Source: a virus. From it: 25,068 nt of DNA. Below are positions 4,339 through 11,619 of the stretch, in pieces. The stretch lies in the IMG/VR virus record IMGVR_UViG_3300042937_000497, positions 1 through 25,068 of that record, one strand, 5' to 3'. Each line of letters opens with the position of its first letter. Position 1 is the first letter of the stretch. Both the position numbers and the translations under genes were made by a program. The notes under the pieces were generated by a model. The model made no database searches. It was not told the origin of the DNA and worked only from the letters and a program-made list of their open reading frames with translations.

Positions 4339-5565
4339 ATGACCACCAACCATTTCCAGGGGCCATTCTTGGCAGTTCCGCTTTGGGCGCATGAAATAAT
4401 ACGTGACTCTGGGCATTCTAGGGACATGCAAGTCCTATTATCTCTTATCGCTCTTATGGAGCGCCGTACCAAAGAAGTTAGTGCTTCCGTACAACAGATT
4501 GCTGATTACTCTGTACTCTCCAAAGAGACTGTCAAGCGTTCCCTTAGGTGGCTAGAAGAGTCAGGTGTGGTTACAATTGGACGCCGTAAAAAGCCGTCAG
4601 TGAATGTTTATACAATTAACTATGCACCAGCAGATGGGGTCAGCGGTGACCCCATTAGGGCTGTGGATAAGTGGGTAGATAGGGTCACTGGTGACCCTAT
4701 GATGGGGTCAGCCGTGACCCCATCAAAACCACGTTTGGCCCATACTGCTTGCGGATTACGTGACTCTTCTATAGAAGTATTAAATATAGATACTAATAAG
4801 GTAAAGAAAGCCGCAAGCGGCCTGGAGGAAGAAATGATCTTAGGTGGAGACCCAGAGGAGGCCGAAGTGGAGGTAGAAACAAAAGTTAAAAAGAAGAGTC
4901 AAAGGAACGTCAACAGTTTGGTCACCCAGTTTATAAGTGACCCACGTACGATTATGAGCCACAGTTATTCTTATAAGGAAATTATTATCTTACGTAAGAC
5001 CCTTAACACCCTTAGAGACTCGGGCCTTACGGAGTTCACCGTTTCACAAATGATCAAGCGATTCCTTGACGTTGAGCACTGGCGTAATTCAGAAACACCA
5101 GTTTTAGTTTTTACCAACAAGGCAGTACAGCAAAAACTCATGGACCAAGTTGACACCGAGGTTGTTACAGAAGACCCAGTTCTTGCTTTGATGATGAGCG
5201 ACTTTGAACGTGTCGGCATTAATTTGCCGTGGGATTATACAAACGATCAATTACTAAAGCGTGAAGTTATTCGTCATGGCATTGACATCTGCTACCGCTA
5301 CCCTGAAGTTGTGGCAGAACTAATTAAAATCCACAATGGTGTACCAAGTACAAACTTTACTGCAACCTTGCGTGCGCTAAACTCTCTTGTAAGAGTTTTA
5401 TCGGGCGAAGAAGATGGTGACTTAACCGAACTTCACGCTGCGGTGTCTTCTGTGAGTCTTCCACCAGAACTACACAAAACTTCAAAGAAAGACCTGCGCC
5501 CTGCGGCAGGGTCTCTACTTGAAGCCGTGTACAACTATCGGAGGAGTACCCATGGACGAAAGTGA
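4339..5565 (+). CDS. Replication initiator with N-terminal winged helix, lambda O-like architecture
   Basis: A 408-residue protein from ATG 4339; an in-frame GTG at 4321 is possible but lies upstream of the predicted -10. Residues about 30-95 form a winged helix-turn-helix: VQQIADYSVLSKETVKRSL is the recognition HTH and GVVTIGRRKK the wing. The next 30 residues (98-128) are encoded by three palindromes and contain DPIRAV, VTGDPM and VTPSKP. Acidic and lysine-rich linker sequence follows (about 165-195), then a helical C-terminal domain. It heads an operon containing a DnaC-like loader, helicase and primase, so it probably binds the origin inside its own gene and recruits the loader-helicase complex, as lambda O does with P and DnaB. 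The role is inferred from architecture and context rather than from a recognised family. Confidence 0.75.
   Translation: MTTNHFQGPFLAVPLWAHEIIRDSGHSRDMQVLLSLIALMERRTKEVSASVQQIADYSVLSKETVKRSLRWLEESGVVTIGRRKKPSVNVYTINYAPADGVSGDPIRAVDKWVDRVTGDPMMGSAVTPSKPRLAHTACGLRDSSIEVLNIDTNKVKKAASGLEEEMILGGDPEEAEVEVETKVKKKSQRNVNSLVTQFISDPRTIMSHSYSYKEIIILRKTLNTLRDSGLTEFTVSQMIKRFLDVEHWRNSETPVLVFTNKAVQQKLMDQVDTEVVTEDPVLALMMSDFERVGINLPWDYTNDQLLKREVIRHGIDICYRYPEVVAELIKIHNGVPSTNFTATLRALNSLVRVLSGEEDGDLTELHAAVSSVSLPPELHKTSKKDLRPAAGSLLEAVYNYRRSTHGRK
4634..4655. repeat. Origin palindrome 1
   Basis: Perfect 9-bp arms ATGGGGTCA and TGACCCCAT around the spacer GCGG. It lies in the initiator coding region just after the winged helix. 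The arms are identical to those of palindrome 3. Confidence 0.85.
4662..4670 (-). other. Perfect consensus DnaA box
   Basis: The plus strand reads TGTGGATAA, the exact reverse complement of the DnaA box consensus TTATCCACA. It sits between palindromes 1 and 2. A single 9-mer can occur by chance in 25 kb, but its position inside the palindrome cluster makes host DnaA binding plausible. Confidence 0.65.
4679..4700. repeat. Origin palindrome 2
   Basis: Perfect 9-bp arms ATAGGGTCA and TGACCCTAT around CTGG; the two innermost spacer bases on each side (C and G) also pair, so the symmetry extends to 10 bp. It differs from palindromes 1 and 3 by one compensated change (G to A with C to T), which keeps the symmetry and argues for selection on the DNA site. 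Confidence 0.85.
4702..4723. repeat. Origin palindrome 3
   Basis: Perfect arms ATGGGGTCA and TGACCCCAT around GCCG, extending to 10 bp with the flanking G4701 and C4724. It starts 23 bp after palindrome 2; palindrome 2 starts 45 bp after palindrome 1. Confidence 0.85.
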
Positions 5566-5908
5566 ACCTATGTATGTTTTTGAGAACATAAACGACATTT
5601 TGATCTTTGCTCAATGGGTGCATGAGAACTTTGAATCCCCCGAAGAGTACGAAGGCTGGTTTGAGCACTCCCTTGACTCAGCAGTTCCTTCAGAAGTTTT
5701 TTGTACTCGCCCACAAAAGAAAGTGGAAAAGATGCATGTCTGTGTAGAGTGCAAAGCCCAGTTCACAACAAAGTCAGGATTAAGCGTTCATCAAAATGTT
5801 GTTCACACACGCAAGTTGGATAACGCAGAATTCTGGGACATAATCAAAACTACTTACAACGATCACAACGAGGACCACAATGAGCCAAACATTTCAGACA
5901 CCGACTGA
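5552..5908 (+). CDS. C2H2 zinc-finger protein
   Basis: A 118-residue protein. ATG 5552 is chosen over upstream in-frame non-ATG starts because GGAGGAG (5540-5546) precedes it by 5-6 bases. Residues 64-85 form a textbook C2H2 finger: C64-x2-C67-x12-H80-x4-H85, with F71 and L77 at the usual hydrophobic core positions. The flanks are very acidic, with an N-terminal helix of Glu/Phe/Trp residues and a C-terminal NDHNEDHNEP tail rich in His, Asn and Asp. The gene overlaps the initiator gene by 14 bases and the loader gene by 29. A DNA- or protein-binding adaptor role in initiation is plausible; nothing catalytic is visible. Confidence 0.8.
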   Translation: MDESEPMYVFENINDILIFAQWVHENFESPEEYEGWFEHSLDSAVPSEVFCTRPQKKVEKMHVCVECKAQFTTKSGLSVHQNVVHTRKLDNAEFWDIIKTTYNDHNEDHNEPNISDTD

Positions 5909-6464
5909 TTGGAAGTCAGCAGCTTGGTGGCGTAACCGTTCTCCAGAAGAACGTGTATTTCATTCTAAAATACCTCGCAGATTCGCTGACTGCGAAGATA
6001 TCACTAACCCAAAGATTGCAAAATGGGTTATGGATTACAAACAAGGCGACAGCATTCTCATTCAGGGAAAGCCAGGAACTGGCAAATCAACAATGGCCCA
6101 GGCTGTACTTAGGGCGCTTGTTTTAGATAACCCTCTGTCAGGTCGCTTTGTCACATCCGATAGGTACATTGAGATGCTCAAAGACCAGTTTGATAACGAC
6201 AACCTTCTTCCAGAGATGTACTCAAGTCCATACTTGATTAAATACATCCAGGGGGTCTTTGACATTGTTGTCCTTGATGGTGTTGGCCAAGAACGTGAAA
6301 CAGAATTCTCAATCCATGAAATTGGTAGTTTGATTCGGCGTCGTCACGAAGACATGCGCACGACAATCATTACAACAACTCTTGGAGTCTCTGACTTTAC
6401 ACGTCGCTACGGTGACCGTGTTAAAAGTGCCGTGCTTGACATGGTGGAAGTCAAGGTTGTGTGA
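5880..6464 (+). CDS. DnaC-like helicase loader ATPase
   Basis: A 194-residue AAA+-type ATPase from ATG 5880, preceded by GAGGA. Walker A is GKPGTGKST at residues 63-71. Walker B is IVVLDGVG at 129-136, where the second acidic residue usual in DnaC/DnaA relatives is replaced by Gly. A sensor-like TTIITTT strand is near 160 and the C-terminal region is rich in Arg (DFTRRYGDR). Length and layout fit DnaC/IstB-like loaders that place the replicative helicase on origin DNA. It sits between the initiator region and the helicase gene, as expected for that role. Confidence 0.8.
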   Translation: MSQTFQTPTDWKSAAWWRNRSPEERVFHSKIPRRFADCEDITNPKIAKWVMDYKQGDSILIQGKPGTGKSTMAQAVLRALVLDNPLSGRFVTSDRYIEMLKDQFDNDNLLPEMYSSPYLIKYIQGVFDIVVLDGVGQERETEFSIHEIGSLIRRRHEDMRTTIITTTLGVSDFTRRYGDRVKSAVLDMVEVKVV

Positions 6465-6904
6465 TGGAGGCTGGAGACATTGGAGTTGGCTCACGCATTG
6501 GGCAAGCATGTGTTTTTGAGGGCGTACTAGCATCACCACCTGTAGGTGTTGCACTTGTTAAAGAGAAGTACCACATTCGCCGTGGCTCTTGGGACGATGC
6601 ATTAAAGCTTTGGACACCTAACGAACTTCCACTGAAGTCTTTAATTGACTCATCCGAAAGGATGGGTATTGCTACCGACATCATCACATTCCTTGACGCA
6701 GACGCAGTTGAACCGATGTACAGGTGGCTTGTAAGAAAAGGAATACACCTAGCGGTAGTTCACTATGACACACCCGAACTGTACGCTGAAGACCTTAAGT
6801 ACAATCGTGGCGTAAAGGTTGTCTACACACCCAACAAAGAAATTGCTTACACACTTGGCATGCGAGCCACAGTAGTTAGCCCTAAATCTGCCTGGAGACT
6901 CTGA
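6464..6904 (+). CDS. Unknown conserved-context alpha/beta protein
   Basis: A 146-residue protein whose ATG shares one base with the loader stop (TGATG) and whose stop shares a base with the helicase ATG. The N-terminal part is Gly/Val rich (DIGVGSRIGQACVFEGVL). The centre alternates strands and helices: DIITFLDAD, then MYRWLVRKGIHLAVVHYD, then KVVYTPNKEIA. This could be a small Rossmann- or HAD-like fold without a clear active site. Its position between loader and helicase suggests a replication accessory role; I do not recognise the family. Confidence 0.6.
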   Translation: MEAGDIGVGSRIGQACVFEGVLASPPVGVALVKEKYHIRRGSWDDALKLWTPNELPLKSLIDSSERMGIATDIITFLDADAVEPMYRWLVRKGIHLAVVHYDTPELYAEDLKYNRGVKVVYTPNKEIAYTLGMRATVVSPKSAWRL

Positions 6905-8157
6905 TGGCATCTAGCGAACTTTACTTAGTTTCAAAAATCATTCTTGAAAAAGAAACAAACATACCTATTCGTGCTGGACTAAAGCCAGACCACCTAACTG
7001 GTGAATGGCAGGGAGTGTGGCAATGGATTTTAGAGTTCCAACGTGCACACGGTTCTGTACCTACTGAGCGCGTGTTCATGCAACAGTTTGGTGGAATCAC
7101 CTTGCATGACGTTAAGGACGAACCATTCTCAAGATTGCTTGATGAAATCTTTGATGCTTACCGTAAGCGTTGCATGTTGGACGCCCTACAGCCAGCAATC
7201 AATGCACTTAACGATGATGACATTGACAAAGCAATGTCAACACTTGCATCAGGTTTGCAGAAAGCAAGTGTTGAAGCTTCTAGGTTGCGTGACGTAGACA
7301 TTATTCAAAACTACGAAAACCGTCTTAACCGCTATGAAGAGATGCGCCTACAACCAAACGCACTACGCGGAATCCCTACAGGATTTCATGGTCTTGACAA
7401 GATCACGCATGGCCTACGCCCACAGCAGTTCATTGTCTTTGCAGGTGAGCCTAAGCGTGGTAAATCTTTGTTTGCTTTGATCGTTGCTAACTCAGCGCAC
7501 ATCTACGGCAAGCGCCCTCTCTTCGTGTCCTTTGAAATGAGTATTGAAGAACAGGAGGCTCGCTACGACGCTTTGATTGCAAAAGTACCGTATGGCCGAA
7601 TCCTTGCTGGAGATCTCACGAACAAGGACATGGAGAAAATTCGTAAAGCATTATCCATCCGCAAGCACATGCAACCGTTTGTGTTCAGTGAGGACACCGC
7701 TTCTCTAACAACTGTTAGCGGGCTTGCTGGAAAAGTACAAGAGTATCAACCGGACCTGCTAGTCGTGGACGGCGTGTACTTAATGGATGACGAAGAGGGC
7801 GAAGCAAAAGGTTCACCTCAAGCACTCACCAATATCACTCGTTCACTAAAACGACTTGCACAAAGGTTTGACATCCCTGTAGTTGCCACAACCCAAGTAC
7901 TGTCTTGGAAACTAGGGAACAAGAAGACGCGTGCAGTAACAGCAGACGCAATTGGTTACACCTCCTCATTCGCTCAAGACGCCGACTTAATCCTTGGTGT
8001 TGAGCGCAACCCAGACATGGATGACCAAGCAATCATCAGAGTCGTACTTGCAAGGTCTTCGCCAAATGGTGAAGTACACATCAAGTGGGATTGGACAACA
8101 ATGGAGTTTGAGGAGGTATACGAGAATGGCGCAGACTTCGACCCCTCTTTCGACTGA
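6904..8157 (+). CDS. dnaB: DnaB-like replicative DNA helicase
   Basis: A 417-residue RecA-fold helicase. An N-terminal helical domain (1-125) has the WQWILEF and short-helix pattern of DnaB N-domains. GIPTGFHGLDKITHGL at about 157-171 is the classic entry into the DnaB ATPase core. Walker A is GEPKRGKS (181-188), Walker B LLVVDG (285-290), and VVATTQ (near 325) is the sensor strand. FVSFEMSIEEQEAR matches DnaB motif 1a. It should form a hexamer that unwinds DNA 5' to 3' at the phage fork, loaded by the product of 5880-6464. It overlaps the primase gene by 32 bases, helping equimolar coupling of helicase and primase. Confidence 0.92.
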   Translation: MASSELYLVSKIILEKETNIPIRAGLKPDHLTGEWQGVWQWILEFQRAHGSVPTERVFMQQFGGITLHDVKDEPFSRLLDEIFDAYRKRCMLDALQPAINALNDDDIDKAMSTLASGLQKASVEASRLRDVDIIQNYENRLNRYEEMRLQPNALRGIPTGFHGLDKITHGLRPQQFIVFAGEPKRGKSLFALIVANSAHIYGKRPLFVSFEMSIEEQEARYDALIAKVPYGRILAGDLTNKDMEKIRKALSIRKHMQPFVFSEDTASLTTVSGLAGKVQEYQPDLLVVDGVYLMDDEEGEAKGSPQALTNITRSLKRLAQRFDIPVVATTQVLSWKLGNKKTRAVTADAIGYTSSFAQDADLILGVERNPDMDDQAIIRVVLARSSPNGEVHIKWDWTTMEFEEVYENGADFDPSFD

Positions 8158-9043
8158 TGTTGCTCTAATCCTTGAAACAGCAGGAGTAGAGATATCTAAG
8201 ATTGGTGACAGGGAAATTACAGGCAAGTGCCCAGTCCACATCCACACAACTGGCCGTGCTGACAACTCTCCGTCATGGAGCATTAATTCCTCTAGTGGTT
8301 TATGGATCTGCTTCTCGTGTGGCGCCCGTGGAACCTTGTCGTCATTGCTCTACCAGCTAATTGGTGATAGCTCCATATCGGCACAGCAGTTTCTTATTAA
8401 TGCTGGAATGCAGCGGTTGACAGATGGGCCAAAGCCACTTGAACTAACTCCACTTGTAAACCCAGATGCGTTTTTAAAGTTTGATCGTGTATCTGATAAG
8501 CGTTGTTTATCTAAGAACTTAAACCCAGAACTGGTTTACAGGCATGGTGTTAGGTGGAACACATCTAATAAGACATGGGCCTTGCCGATTATTTCAGCTA
8601 CTGGGCAACTCAAAGGCTGGCAGGAGAAAAAACCAGGATGGGTTCGCAACTTTCCTGTTGGTGTAGAAAAGGGCAAAACCCTGTTTGGCATTGAAAGGTT
8701 CCGTGGACGAACAGCCGTTCTGGTAGAGTCTCCTTTAGACATTGTTAGGTTTGCAGATGTCTTTTTTAAACCAAGTGCTCTAGCTTCATTTGGTGCACAA
8801 GTTAGTAGGGCTCAAATGGATTTACTTTTACATGTTGCTGATTCAGTTGTTGTTGCAATGGACAACGACCAGGCAGGTGTTGAATCAAGCAAGAAGCTTT
8901 ACAAATTTATGGGCACCCCTCGCAAAGGCATTAAGTGGTGGAACTACAGCAACACCGAAGCTAAAGATATAGGCGACATGACAGACGAAGAGATTGAAGA
9001 AGGGCTACTAACAGCAACAGTAGTACCTCCCTGGATTGGCTAA
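8126..9043 (+). CDS. dnaG: DnaG-like primase
   Basis: A 305-residue protein. ATG 8126 is used because AGGAGG (8111-8116) lies 9 bases upstream; an in-frame start at 7994 would overlap the helicase by 160 bases. The zinc-binding domain has C35-x2-H38 and C62-x2-C65, with the WICFSCGARG loop typical of CHC2 primase fingers. The Toprim domain has E201 (VLVESPLDI) and D246/D248 (VAMDNDQAG), the metal-binding acidic triad. The protein is short compared with bacterial DnaG (about 600 residues) and lacks an obvious C-terminal helicase-interaction domain, as in many phage primases. It makes RNA primers for lagging-strand synthesis. Confidence 0.9.
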   Translation: MAQTSTPLSTDVALILETAGVEISKIGDREITGKCPVHIHTTGRADNSPSWSINSSSGLWICFSCGARGTLSSLLYQLIGDSSISAQQFLINAGMQRLTDGPKPLELTPLVNPDAFLKFDRVSDKRCLSKNLNPELVYRHGVRWNTSNKTWALPIISATGQLKGWQEKKPGWVRNFPVGVEKGKTLFGIERFRGRTAVLVESPLDIVRFADVFFKPSALASFGAQVSRAQMDLLLHVADSVVVAMDNDQAGVESSKKLYKFMGTPRKGIKWWNYSNTEAKDIGDMTDEEIEEGLLTATVVPPWIG

Positions 9044-10590
9044 TGTTTAACGGAAAGCTTTACCCATATCAAGAAGAATCAGTTGATCGTATGGTTGACC
9101 GTGGCCAGATGCTCTTAGGTCTTGTTATGGGCGCAGGTAAGACAGTCACAACTATCGCTTGCATTGAGCAGCTCATGGAAGCTAACGAAGTTGAAAAGTG
9201 CCTAGTCATAGTTCCGTCATCCCTCAAGTACCAGTGGAAACGCGAGATTGAACGTTTCACAAACTCACGAGTCATTGTCATTGATGGTACGCCCAAGGCC
9301 AGGGAAAAGGCATGGAGAGCAACCCTCTCAGCTAAGTACATTATTGTTAACCCTGAGACACTTATACGAGATTCGTCTCACTGTCTTAAAGTCAACTTCC
9401 AATCAGTTGTTGTTGACGAAGCAACAATCATTAAGTCCAGGGTCAGCAAACGCTCAAAGATGATTAAAAAGATTGGCAAAAGGGTGCATTATAGGTTTGC
9501 TCTAACTGGTCAGCCAATTGAAAACAGGCCAGAAGAGTTGTTCTCAATTATGGAGTTTGTTGACCCAGATGTACTTGGTCGGTTTGACCTGTTTGACAGG
9601 ACGTTTATTGTTAGGGACCACTACGGTAAAGCAACTAGGTACAGGAACTTAAAATCTTTGCACGAGTCAATGAGCGAATGTATGGTTCGTAAAACACGCG
9701 AGGACATCGCAGACCAACTGCCAAACATTATTCACCAAACCATCCCAGTTCCTTTTGATGCGGCAGGGGCCAGCCTTTACAGAACCATATCAACTGACCT
9801 TCTTAATGAACTTCAAAAGGTTCTTAATACCCATGGTGCTGGGTTTAACTTGTGGAAACACTATAACGACCCAGCTTCTAATGAGGCCCAAGGTCAGATT
9901 ATGTCTCGCCTAACCGTTTTGCGGATGTTATGCGATAACCCCCATTTAGTAACAAGGTCAGCTGCAGCATACGCCGACCCCAACAGACCTAACCAAGGCA
10001 GTGCTTATGCAGACGCAATTACTAAAAAAGGTTTTGTAACACCAAACCTTGGTTCTCCAAAACTAGATGCCGTGATGGATTACATCACTCAAGTCCTTGA
10101 TGAAGACCCAAAAAACAAGGTAGTTCTTTTTTCATTTTTTAAAGAAAACTTAAAGCTTTTAAAAGCAGCGACTGCCCGCATCACTAACAGTGTTCTTTTT
10201 ACAGGGGACATGTCATCAGAAGAGAAAGACCAAGCTAAGCAACAATTCTCCAATGACCCTAACACTCGGCTCTTCTTATCATCAGACGCTGGTGGTTACG
10301 GTGTTGACCTACCTATGGCCAACTACTTAATCTCTTATGACCTTCCCTGGAGTAGTGGAAAGCTTGAACAAAGAGAAGCTCGTATCATTAGGTTGTCTTC
10401 TCAGTTCTCTCATGTTACGATTGCCACGTTCGTCATGCAAGGCTCCATTGAAGAAAGACAATACGAGATGCTTCAGCAGAAGCGTTCAATCAATGAAGCT
10501 TTCGTTGACGGAAAACATCACGACATTCGTGGTGGATTTGACATCATGTTAGGTAGTCTTACGTCCTTCCTAAGAGAATCACAGGTTTAA
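9043..10590 (+). CDS. SNF2-like superfamily II helicase
   Basis: A 515-residue DNA-dependent ATPase. Q motif-like LYPYQEESVDRM opens the protein. Walker A is GAGKT at 30-34, Walker B DEAT at about 125-128 and motif III is TGQPIEN near 155-161. Domain 2 has motif V (SDAGGYGVDL) and motif VI (QREARIIRL). The gaps and the PIEN motif place it with SNF2/Rad54-like translocases rather than DEAD-box RNA helicases. Likely roles are clearing proteins from DNA or remodelling forks and recombination intermediates. Its ATG shares one base with the primase stop, so it is part of the replication operon. Confidence 0.9.
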   Translation: MFNGKLYPYQEESVDRMVDRGQMLLGLVMGAGKTVTTIACIEQLMEANEVEKCLVIVPSSLKYQWKREIERFTNSRVIVIDGTPKAREKAWRATLSAKYIIVNPETLIRDSSHCLKVNFQSVVVDEATIIKSRVSKRSKMIKKIGKRVHYRFALTGQPIENRPEELFSIMEFVDPDVLGRFDLFDRTFIVRDHYGKATRYRNLKSLHESMSECMVRKTREDIADQLPNIIHQTIPVPFDAAGASLYRTISTDLLNELQKVLNTHGAGFNLWKHYNDPASNEAQGQIMSRLTVLRMLCDNPHLVTRSAAAYADPNRPNQGSAYADAITKKGFVTPNLGSPKLDAVMDYITQVLDEDPKNKVVLFSFFKENLKLLKAATARITNSVLFTGDMSSEEKDQAKQQFSNDPNTRLFLSSDAGGYGVDLPMANYLISYDLPWSSGKLEQREARIIRLSSQFSHVTIATFVMQGSIEERQYEMLQQKRSINEAFVDGKHHDIRGGFDIMLGSLTSFLRESQV

Positions 10591-10591
10591 A

Positions 10592-11014
10592 ATGTCAGAC
10601 AAAGTTGATAAAGACACTATTAGTCGGTTAATTGAGGAATACAAAAACTCAAGGCACATGGCAGACAAAGTTCAAGCACGAGTTGATGAGTTTAAAAAAG
10701 AACTAACTCGTTTAGTAAAAGCACATGGCAAACCTGACGACAAAGGCCACCTATGGCTCCCTGGTTTAGAGAACCAGGTAAAGCATGAACGTCGCGTAAG
10801 CAAATCCTTTGATCTTCAGTCCGCAAAAGAATGGGCTAAAGAAATTGGAATTTGGGATGAAGTCAAAGAGGTAGTTGAAACTACCAGCGAAGACCAGATC
10901 TTAAAGTACGTGTGGTCACACCCAGAGCACGAGTCTACACTTGCCTCTTTCTATAGCGAGAAAGAGTCATGGGCATTTAAAGTAGTTGAGCAAAAGAGTT
11001 ATGACGATGAGTAA
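10592..11014 (+). CDS. Unknown coiled-coil protein in replication operon
   Basis: A 140-residue charged protein. Residues 5-50 form a long Lys/Glu-rich helix (LIEEYKNSRH, VQARVDEFKKELTRLVKAHG), a likely coiled coil. A compact middle has the sequence KGHLWLPGLENQVKHER, and an acidic helical C-terminus follows with WSHPEHEST. The coiled coil followed by a GHLWLP strand is somewhat like Gam-type nuclease inhibitors, but I cannot support that assignment. It begins one base after the SNF2-like gene and overlaps the next start by 8 bases. Confidence 0.6.
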   Translation: MSDKVDKDTISRLIEEYKNSRHMADKVQARVDEFKKELTRLVKAHGKPDDKGHLWLPGLENQVKHERRVSKSFDLQSAKEWAKEIGIWDEVKEVVETTSEDQILKYVWSHPEHESTLASFYSEKESWAFKVVEQKSYDDE

Positions 11015-11192
11015 TCTGTACAATCCATACACAAAGCCAAAAAAAGAAGAAAATCCTCATATGCCTGCCAAAGATCAGCTTATGATTGAAAACAAAATGC
11101 TGGCAAAAAAAGTACGTGATTTAAGAGCAGAAGTTGAACTACTCAAAGCGGTAATCCAAGATTTAGACGAAGAGTACTTTAATGAGTCGTGA
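11007..11192 (+). CDS. Small coiled-coil protein (61 aa)
   Basis: The ATG at 11007 is favoured over 11001 because AAAGAG (10993-10998) gives 8-base spacing only to the former. The N-terminus is Pro/Lys rich (NPYTKPKKEENP). Residues about 25-55 contain a leucine heptad pattern (MLAKKVRDLRAEVELLKAV) and the tail is acidic. It is a likely dimeric adaptor. Overlaps with both neighbours (8 and 11 bases) support a real gene. Confidence 0.55.
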   Translation: MSNLYNPYTKPKKEENPHMPAKDQLMIENKMLAKKVRDLRAEVELLKAVIQDLDEEYFNES

Positions 11193-11619
11193 CCCTCTTG
11201 ACTTTTTTAATAGTCTTCCAGATTTTCCTGGCAGGACACCTCCAAAGAATCGCAAGATTGTTTCAAAAGATCCTTTAGCTGAAGATAGGCTTAATGGCGC
11301 TAAGTCAAAGAGCATGAAGATTAACGGCGTTGACAGACAGTTTTTTACAGTAGGTGAATTAGCCAAGGCAGTTAACCGTAAGCCCGTTACAATCAGGTCA
11401 TGGGAATTAAACGGTTGGTTGCCAAAAGCCAAGTACCGAACACCAGCACCTAAGGGAACACAGATTCCTGGAAAAGTTGCAAAAGGACGTAGGCTTTACT
11501 CGCTAGAGCAAGTAGAGTTTCTACTAACCGCGCTGTTGCGGTTTGAGATAGACGACCCGGCCAAGGCCAACTGGGACGGCTTCAGACAGCACATAAAAAA
11601 CCAATGGCCCAACGATTAA
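11182..11619 (+). CDS. MerR-like helix-turn-helix DNA-binding protein
   Basis: A 145-residue protein. Residues 54-85 read FFTVGELAKAVNRKPVTIRSWELNGWLP, the MerR-type winged helix in which the second helix (VTIRSWE) reads DNA. The wing and RRLYSLEQVEFLL follow, the usual RxYS-x2-V/E-L continuation. The N-terminal 50 residues are a basic, Pro-rich extension. There is no C-terminal effector-binding domain or metal cysteines, so it is not a classical sensor but a phage HTH protein. It might regulate the operon or act in replication, as its position between recombination and SSB genes suggests. Confidence 0.8.
   Translation: MSRDPLDFFNSLPDFPGRTPPKNRKIVSKDPLAEDRLNGAKSKSMKINGVDRQFFTVGELAKAVNRKPVTIRSWELNGWLPKAKYRTPAPKGTQIPGKVAKGRRLYSLEQVEFLLTALLRFEIDDPAKANWDGFRQHIKNQWPND

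Follow-up and report, generated by a model that had tools for sequence, protein, structure and literature searches.

The window, a 25,068-bp stretch of viral DNA (IMG/VR record IMGVR_UViG_3300042937_000497), very probably contains a theta-type replication origin inside its own replication initiator gene, laid out much like lambda ori and served by an initiator with a CRP-like winged helix. An origin within the initiator gene that is bound by the winged helix was the original prediction, and it is the reading that best accounts for the data: the putative binding sites are conserved beyond codon constraint, are restricted to a single place, co-vary with the recognition helix, and have been swapped jointly with the winged helix in some relatives.

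The initiator gene (4339 to 5565, forward strand) predicts a 408 aa protein that matches PHROG 270, replication initiation protein (E 7e-11). The reading frame is assigned from ATG 4339 and is also open from GTG 4321; relatives begin at MTTN or the equivalent. In the AF2 model, a confidently predicted N-terminal winged-helix domain (residues 9-98, 4363 to 4632) is followed by a disordered linker (residues 100-188, 4636 to 4902, pLDDT <50) and a C-terminal helical domain (4906 to 5562), all on the forward strand, the last being conserved and separable from the N-terminal domain. The winged helix appears to be CRP-like, matching Pfam HTH_Crp_2 with E 2e-5 and 24.7 bits, which is under the cut-off of 27, and 15 of 21 relatives match this family at E ≤0.01. 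The nearest solved structures by sequence are CRP/CAP (E 0.004), and a fold search with the domain returned generic winged helices only, none with E <0.001. Alignment of relatives places the recognition helix, SKETVKRSLR, at 4519 to 4548 (forward strand).

The neighbouring genes, also on the forward strand, include a DnaC-like helicase loader (5880 to 6464, PHROG 50, E 2e-22), a DnaB-like replicative helicase (6904 to 8157, PF03796, E 1e-34) and a DNA primase ORF with a provisional start (7994 to 9043, Toprim_2 E 2e-8, PHROG 47 E 3e-31), and beyond these come genes for an SNF2-type helicase, PolA and a RecA-like protein. Between the initiator and the loader is a gene for a small C2H2 zinc-finger-like protein (5552 to 5908, Pfam zf-C2H2 E 6e-4, under the cut-off), which relatives retain in this locus, even where identity falls to 24-38%.

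The DNA encoding the disordered stretch holds three palindromes, an AT-rich element and a small hairpin. The palindromes are ATGGGGTCAGCGGTGACCCCAT (site 1, 4634 to 4655, arm ATGGGGTCA), which is kept in relatives, ATAGGGTCACTGGTGACCCTAT (site 2, 4679 to 4700, arm ATAGGGTCA), located 45 bp from site 1, and ATGGGGTCAGCCGTGACCCCAT (site 3, 4702 to 4723, arm ATGGGGTCA), located 23 bp from site 2 and in another reading frame than site 2. On re-check the predicted coordinates and sequences proved exact, each site being a perfect 9+9-bp palindrome with the arm AT[A/G]GGGTCA and an N4 centre, and the AF2 domain order agrees with the earlier claim that they encode a linker after the winged helix. When 20,000 copies of the gene were resampled by codon, 182 of them contained a single GGGTCA-N4-TGACCC and none contained more, compared with three in the real gene. 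The A/G difference between the arms, which had been described as compensated in both arms, is real, but strict compensation does not hold since L010/L062 (87% identical) pairs an ATG arm with a TAT arm, and the outer arm base is a tolerated A/G position.

The presumed DNA unwinding element at 4768 to 4804 has 7 G/C in 37 positions. Taken alone it is marginal (P 0.04 when compared with synonymous shuffles); the window has several other stretches that are equally or more AT-rich. What supports the element is that its position is conserved: in relatives, the AT-rich minimum follows the sites in an equivalent position in 24 of 24 initiators, and in 16 of them it differs from synonymous shuffles at P ≤0.05. 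In several relatives (L013, L085, L129) the element is rich in TAG/TAA triplets, reminiscent of DnaA-trios.

Beyond the AT-rich element is a small GC hairpin, GCCGC-AA-GCGGC (4810 to 4821), that had been missed in the original prediction. The window hairpin is short and, judged by energy alone, weak, but most relatives also carry a GC hairpin soon after the AT-rich element, with stems that change on both sides (GCCGC/GCGGC, ACCGC/GCGGT, GTCGC/GCGAC, GCTCCC/GGGAGC and GTCCCC/GGGGAC); a scan found no clear hairpin at this place in a few relatives, e.g. L045. In L083-L085 and L171-L182 a perfect 15-16-bp stem, ACAAAGGGAAATGTC...GACATTTCCCTTTGT, with compensated pairs follows the AT-rich element inside the coding region.

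Two other elements of the prediction fared less well. A perfect DnaA box does occur at 4662 to 4670 on the reverse strand (TGTGGATAA on the forward strand) and is the only one in the window, where 0.18 are expected by chance, but among relatives only near-identical ones and L062 retain it here, and it is probably not a core element. A DnaA-dependent origin with one or more conserved DnaA boxes was thus set aside. A GC-skew switch at the sites, proposed as a check, was absent from the four long relatives in which it was sought.

A scan of viral contigs for two copies of GGGTCA-N4-TGACCC within 2-32 nt, using sequence only and blind to the protein, recovered 55 contigs, and a scrambled-arm control recovered one. 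In all but a few of the 55 the palindromes are located in the linker just after the winged helix, in initiators of very different sequence. All 35 copies in the 12 long relatives (65-94 kb) are inside the initiator linker, with none elsewhere. This restriction bears on the possibility that the palindromes are operators through which the winged helix autoregulates its own operon, by roadblock or repression, with no direct role at the replication start. The winged helix does resemble CRP and ArsR/MarR-type regulators, a kind of protein that typically uses palindromic operators. However, the sites are well inside the coding region and are accompanied by an AT-rich element and a hairpin, and PHROG assigns the protein to replication initiators, its gene being next to those for a loader and DnaB. 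Regulation as the sole function is therefore unlikely, though autoregulation could occur alongside an origin role.

Among bacterial genome contigs the tandem palindrome gave 18 matches, two or three of which look like initiators. MAGs of Planctomycetota/Thermoguttaceae (L099, L101, L102, L105, L108, L111) contain dispersed palindromes, CGGGGTCA-N4-TGACCCCG, apparently a separate repeat family. The sole match of the scrambled control (L117, 678 to 735) is a tandem ACTGGG-N4-CCCAGT in an initiator-like linker with SLGKPS repeats, possibly another initiator-site pair with a different word. No isolate phage with the origin of the window was found in phage records, tblastn yielding one distant Parageobacillus phage only, and the initiator of an Arthrobacter phage is without such palindromes. 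The isolate Parageobacillus phage JGon-2020a (L300) has an ORF from about position 918 with the helix SPSTVKRSL and linker palindromes GGTTCT-N3-AGAACC, and might serve as a laboratory system. No paper on the GGGTCA palindrome motif was found in the open literature, a search in which subscription journals were mostly outside coverage.

Relatives of the same gene family with changed recognition helices were obtained by a protein-based search in which the sites were not used, and the aligned sequences indicate that recognition helix and half-site change together. SKETVKRSL (TVKR) pairs with GGGTCA, and, within the same syntenic family, L136 has the helix SRETVIRSV (TVIR) and three GTGTCA sites, and L133/L134 have SPKTVQRSL (KTVQR) and AGGTCA. 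Across 17 relatives, each variant word occurs in its own genome only and at that place only. Sites are uneven in the S[PQ]STVKRSI clade, as are the half-sites of the L084 clade, which was counted against the preferred reading.

On the basis of L136, initiators associated with other tandem GTGTCA palindromes were expected to have a residue other than lysine at that helix position. A fresh scan for these palindromes returned 93 contigs, mainly with TV[I/M]R initiators. The position is I, M, V or Q in 22 of 28 non-redundant GTGTCA initiators and K in the other 6, compared with K in 18/18 GGGTCA initiators (Fisher 5e-8, which overstates the association because the pairing is phylogenetically clustered). 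When the helix is left out of the tree, site type may have changed as few as four times, leaving one to four independent pairs. GTGTCA is paired with K or Q helices in the exceptions L215, L242, L250, L224 and L252, and a scan for AGGTCA found no new Q-helix initiator beyond L133/L134, its one other match (L276) having K. The nested cases, L136 and L133/L134, are the cleanest evidence, and the broader association serves as support only.

Searching with just the C-terminal domain identified L344-L346, which share this domain (39% identity) but have a different winged helix. In L345 the initiator is also followed by the loader (59%) and DnaB (74%). The linkers of L344-L346 contain no GGGTCA palindrome. 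They have instead the direct repeat ACGGGCGGACA in three copies spaced 22 and 23 bp apart, and beyond these some shorter repeats and two hairpins. Winged helix and repeats appear to have been swapped jointly with the rest unchanged, which suggests that origin specificity moves in cassette form.

These substitutions also bear on whether the palindromes function as hairpins in DNA or RNA, be it a single-strand initiation site, a cruciform or a translational element, rather than as duplex sites read by a protein. The region folds as a single strand far better than shuffles (z -7.0), as hairpins would. Yet in relatives the sequence of the arms is constrained and not only their symmetry, the N4 centres vary, the arm sequence follows the recognition helix in the nested cases, and a relative with the swapped winged helix has direct repeats at the same spacing. 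A hairpin function in place of protein binding is accordingly very unlikely.

Across 28 clusters of relatives the palindrome word lies in the two usable reading frames, i.e. those lacking an in-frame TGA, about equally often (42 and 39 times), and these encode different peptides, GV..DP or GS..TP. Given peptide and codon usage, the chance of a perfect 9+9 palindrome is P 1.4e-4, 5.8e-4 and 3.5e-4 for the three window sites. Different peptides from the same DNA word, together with palindromes that are improbable given those peptides, argue for selection on the DNA. That the linker peptide (GVxxDP / GSxxTP) is the target of selection and the palindromes a by-product is on these grounds extremely improbable, as the linker is moreover predicted to be disordered, even though similar peptides recur in unrelated initiators. 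Conservation of the palindromes beyond codon constraint, originally proposed as a check on relatives, is borne out by the resampling, the protein-blind scan and the use of two frames.

In relatives, site-to-site distances are mostly 22-24, 33-34 or 45-46 bp. The best period for the GGGTCA set is 11.3 bp (R 0.87, with a P value inflated by shared ancestry), but it becomes 13.6 when only the longer spacings of both sets are taken, which makes the exact period provisional. Such regular spacing fits dimers bound on one face of the DNA. For the preferred reading, an origin bound by its own initiator, we infer the following course. The N-terminal CRP-like winged helix would bind the three N4 palindromes as dimers via SKETVKRSL, and dimers at regular spacing would strain the adjoining AT-rich element, which would then melt. 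The C-terminal domain and the DnaC-like loader, encoded two genes on, would load the phage DnaB at the melted element, and the small hairpin beyond it may mark the far edge of the origin.

The lambda ori is likewise inside the initiator gene, O, in the linker between the DNA-binding and partner-binding domains; its iterons are inverted repeats bound by dimers, an AT-rich element adjoins them, and a helicase-loading protein is encoded downstream (PMC6022878, PMC7466680). Lambda gene O taken through the same steps gave four iterons in all three frames with spacings of 20, 24 and 23, then an AT-rich minimum (P 0.02) and, by eye, an imperfect inverted repeat. With this control, the comparison with lambda ori made in the original prediction holds for the layout. 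The window sites are also inverted repeats in an initiator linker, with spacing near 20-24 bp, an AT-rich element beside them and a helicase loader encoded downstream of the initiator. However, the half-site GGGTCA with its N4 centre is not a lambda iteron, and there are three sites at 45 and 23 bp. Neither the window protein nor the aligned relatives match Phage_rep_O (PF04492), and by profile the window protein falls outside the lambda O family although its layout is lambda-like. L194 encodes a protein (10478 to 11230) that does match Phage_rep_O (E 3e-23) and has the helix RRNVIRAI with GTGTCA-N4-TGACAC repeats in the linker, linking lambda-type initiators to the same class of site.

Origin boxes inside the rep gene are also a feature of the RepA_N initiators (pSK41, pTZ2162) and of PLE RepA. 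In pSK41, the N-terminal winged helix binds boxes central in its own gene, and the origin DNA encodes the linker (PMC5703833, PMC7145576). The N-terminal domain and origin differ as a unit between pPR9 and pSK41 (PMC5703833), which is similar to the swap in L344-L346. RepA_N (PF06970) is absent from the Pfam matches of the window protein up to E 0.01, and fold matches of its winged helix to 4pt7/4pql are weak. RepA_N iterons converge on a poly-A tract. The window phage differs further in carrying its own DnaB and loader. The CRP/FNR DNA-binding domain is the best sequence match of the window winged helix, though the window protein has no cyclic-nucleotide domain, acts in a predicted replication initiator role and has a different half-site. 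The window recognition helix shares the CRP pattern S-x-E-T-V-x-R. By profile, the protein belongs to the same functional class as the HTH_36 and PHROG 270/391/428 phage initiators, for which the open literature searched gave no account of comparable binding sites.

Taken together, these relationships raise the possibility, at somewhat less than even confidence, of a large unrecognised class of phage initiators comprising CRP-like, HTH_36 and some lambda O proteins. Its members would follow one plan, with regularly spaced N4 palindromes in the linker, a winged helix and sites that move as a cassette, and a simple helix code of K with GGGTCA, I or M with GTGTCA and Q with AGGTCA, this code being part of the same tentative joint claim. 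The pairing of helix and site is testable with a few point mutations. To our knowledge, the origins of most phages are unmapped. If the claim is true, origins would be predictable from protein sequence alone. As the sites, the probable reading surface and the natural swaps are all visible in sequence here, predictions can be made for the origins of uncultured phages. Cassette-like origin specificity would also bear on phage compatibility and on the building of orthogonal replicons.
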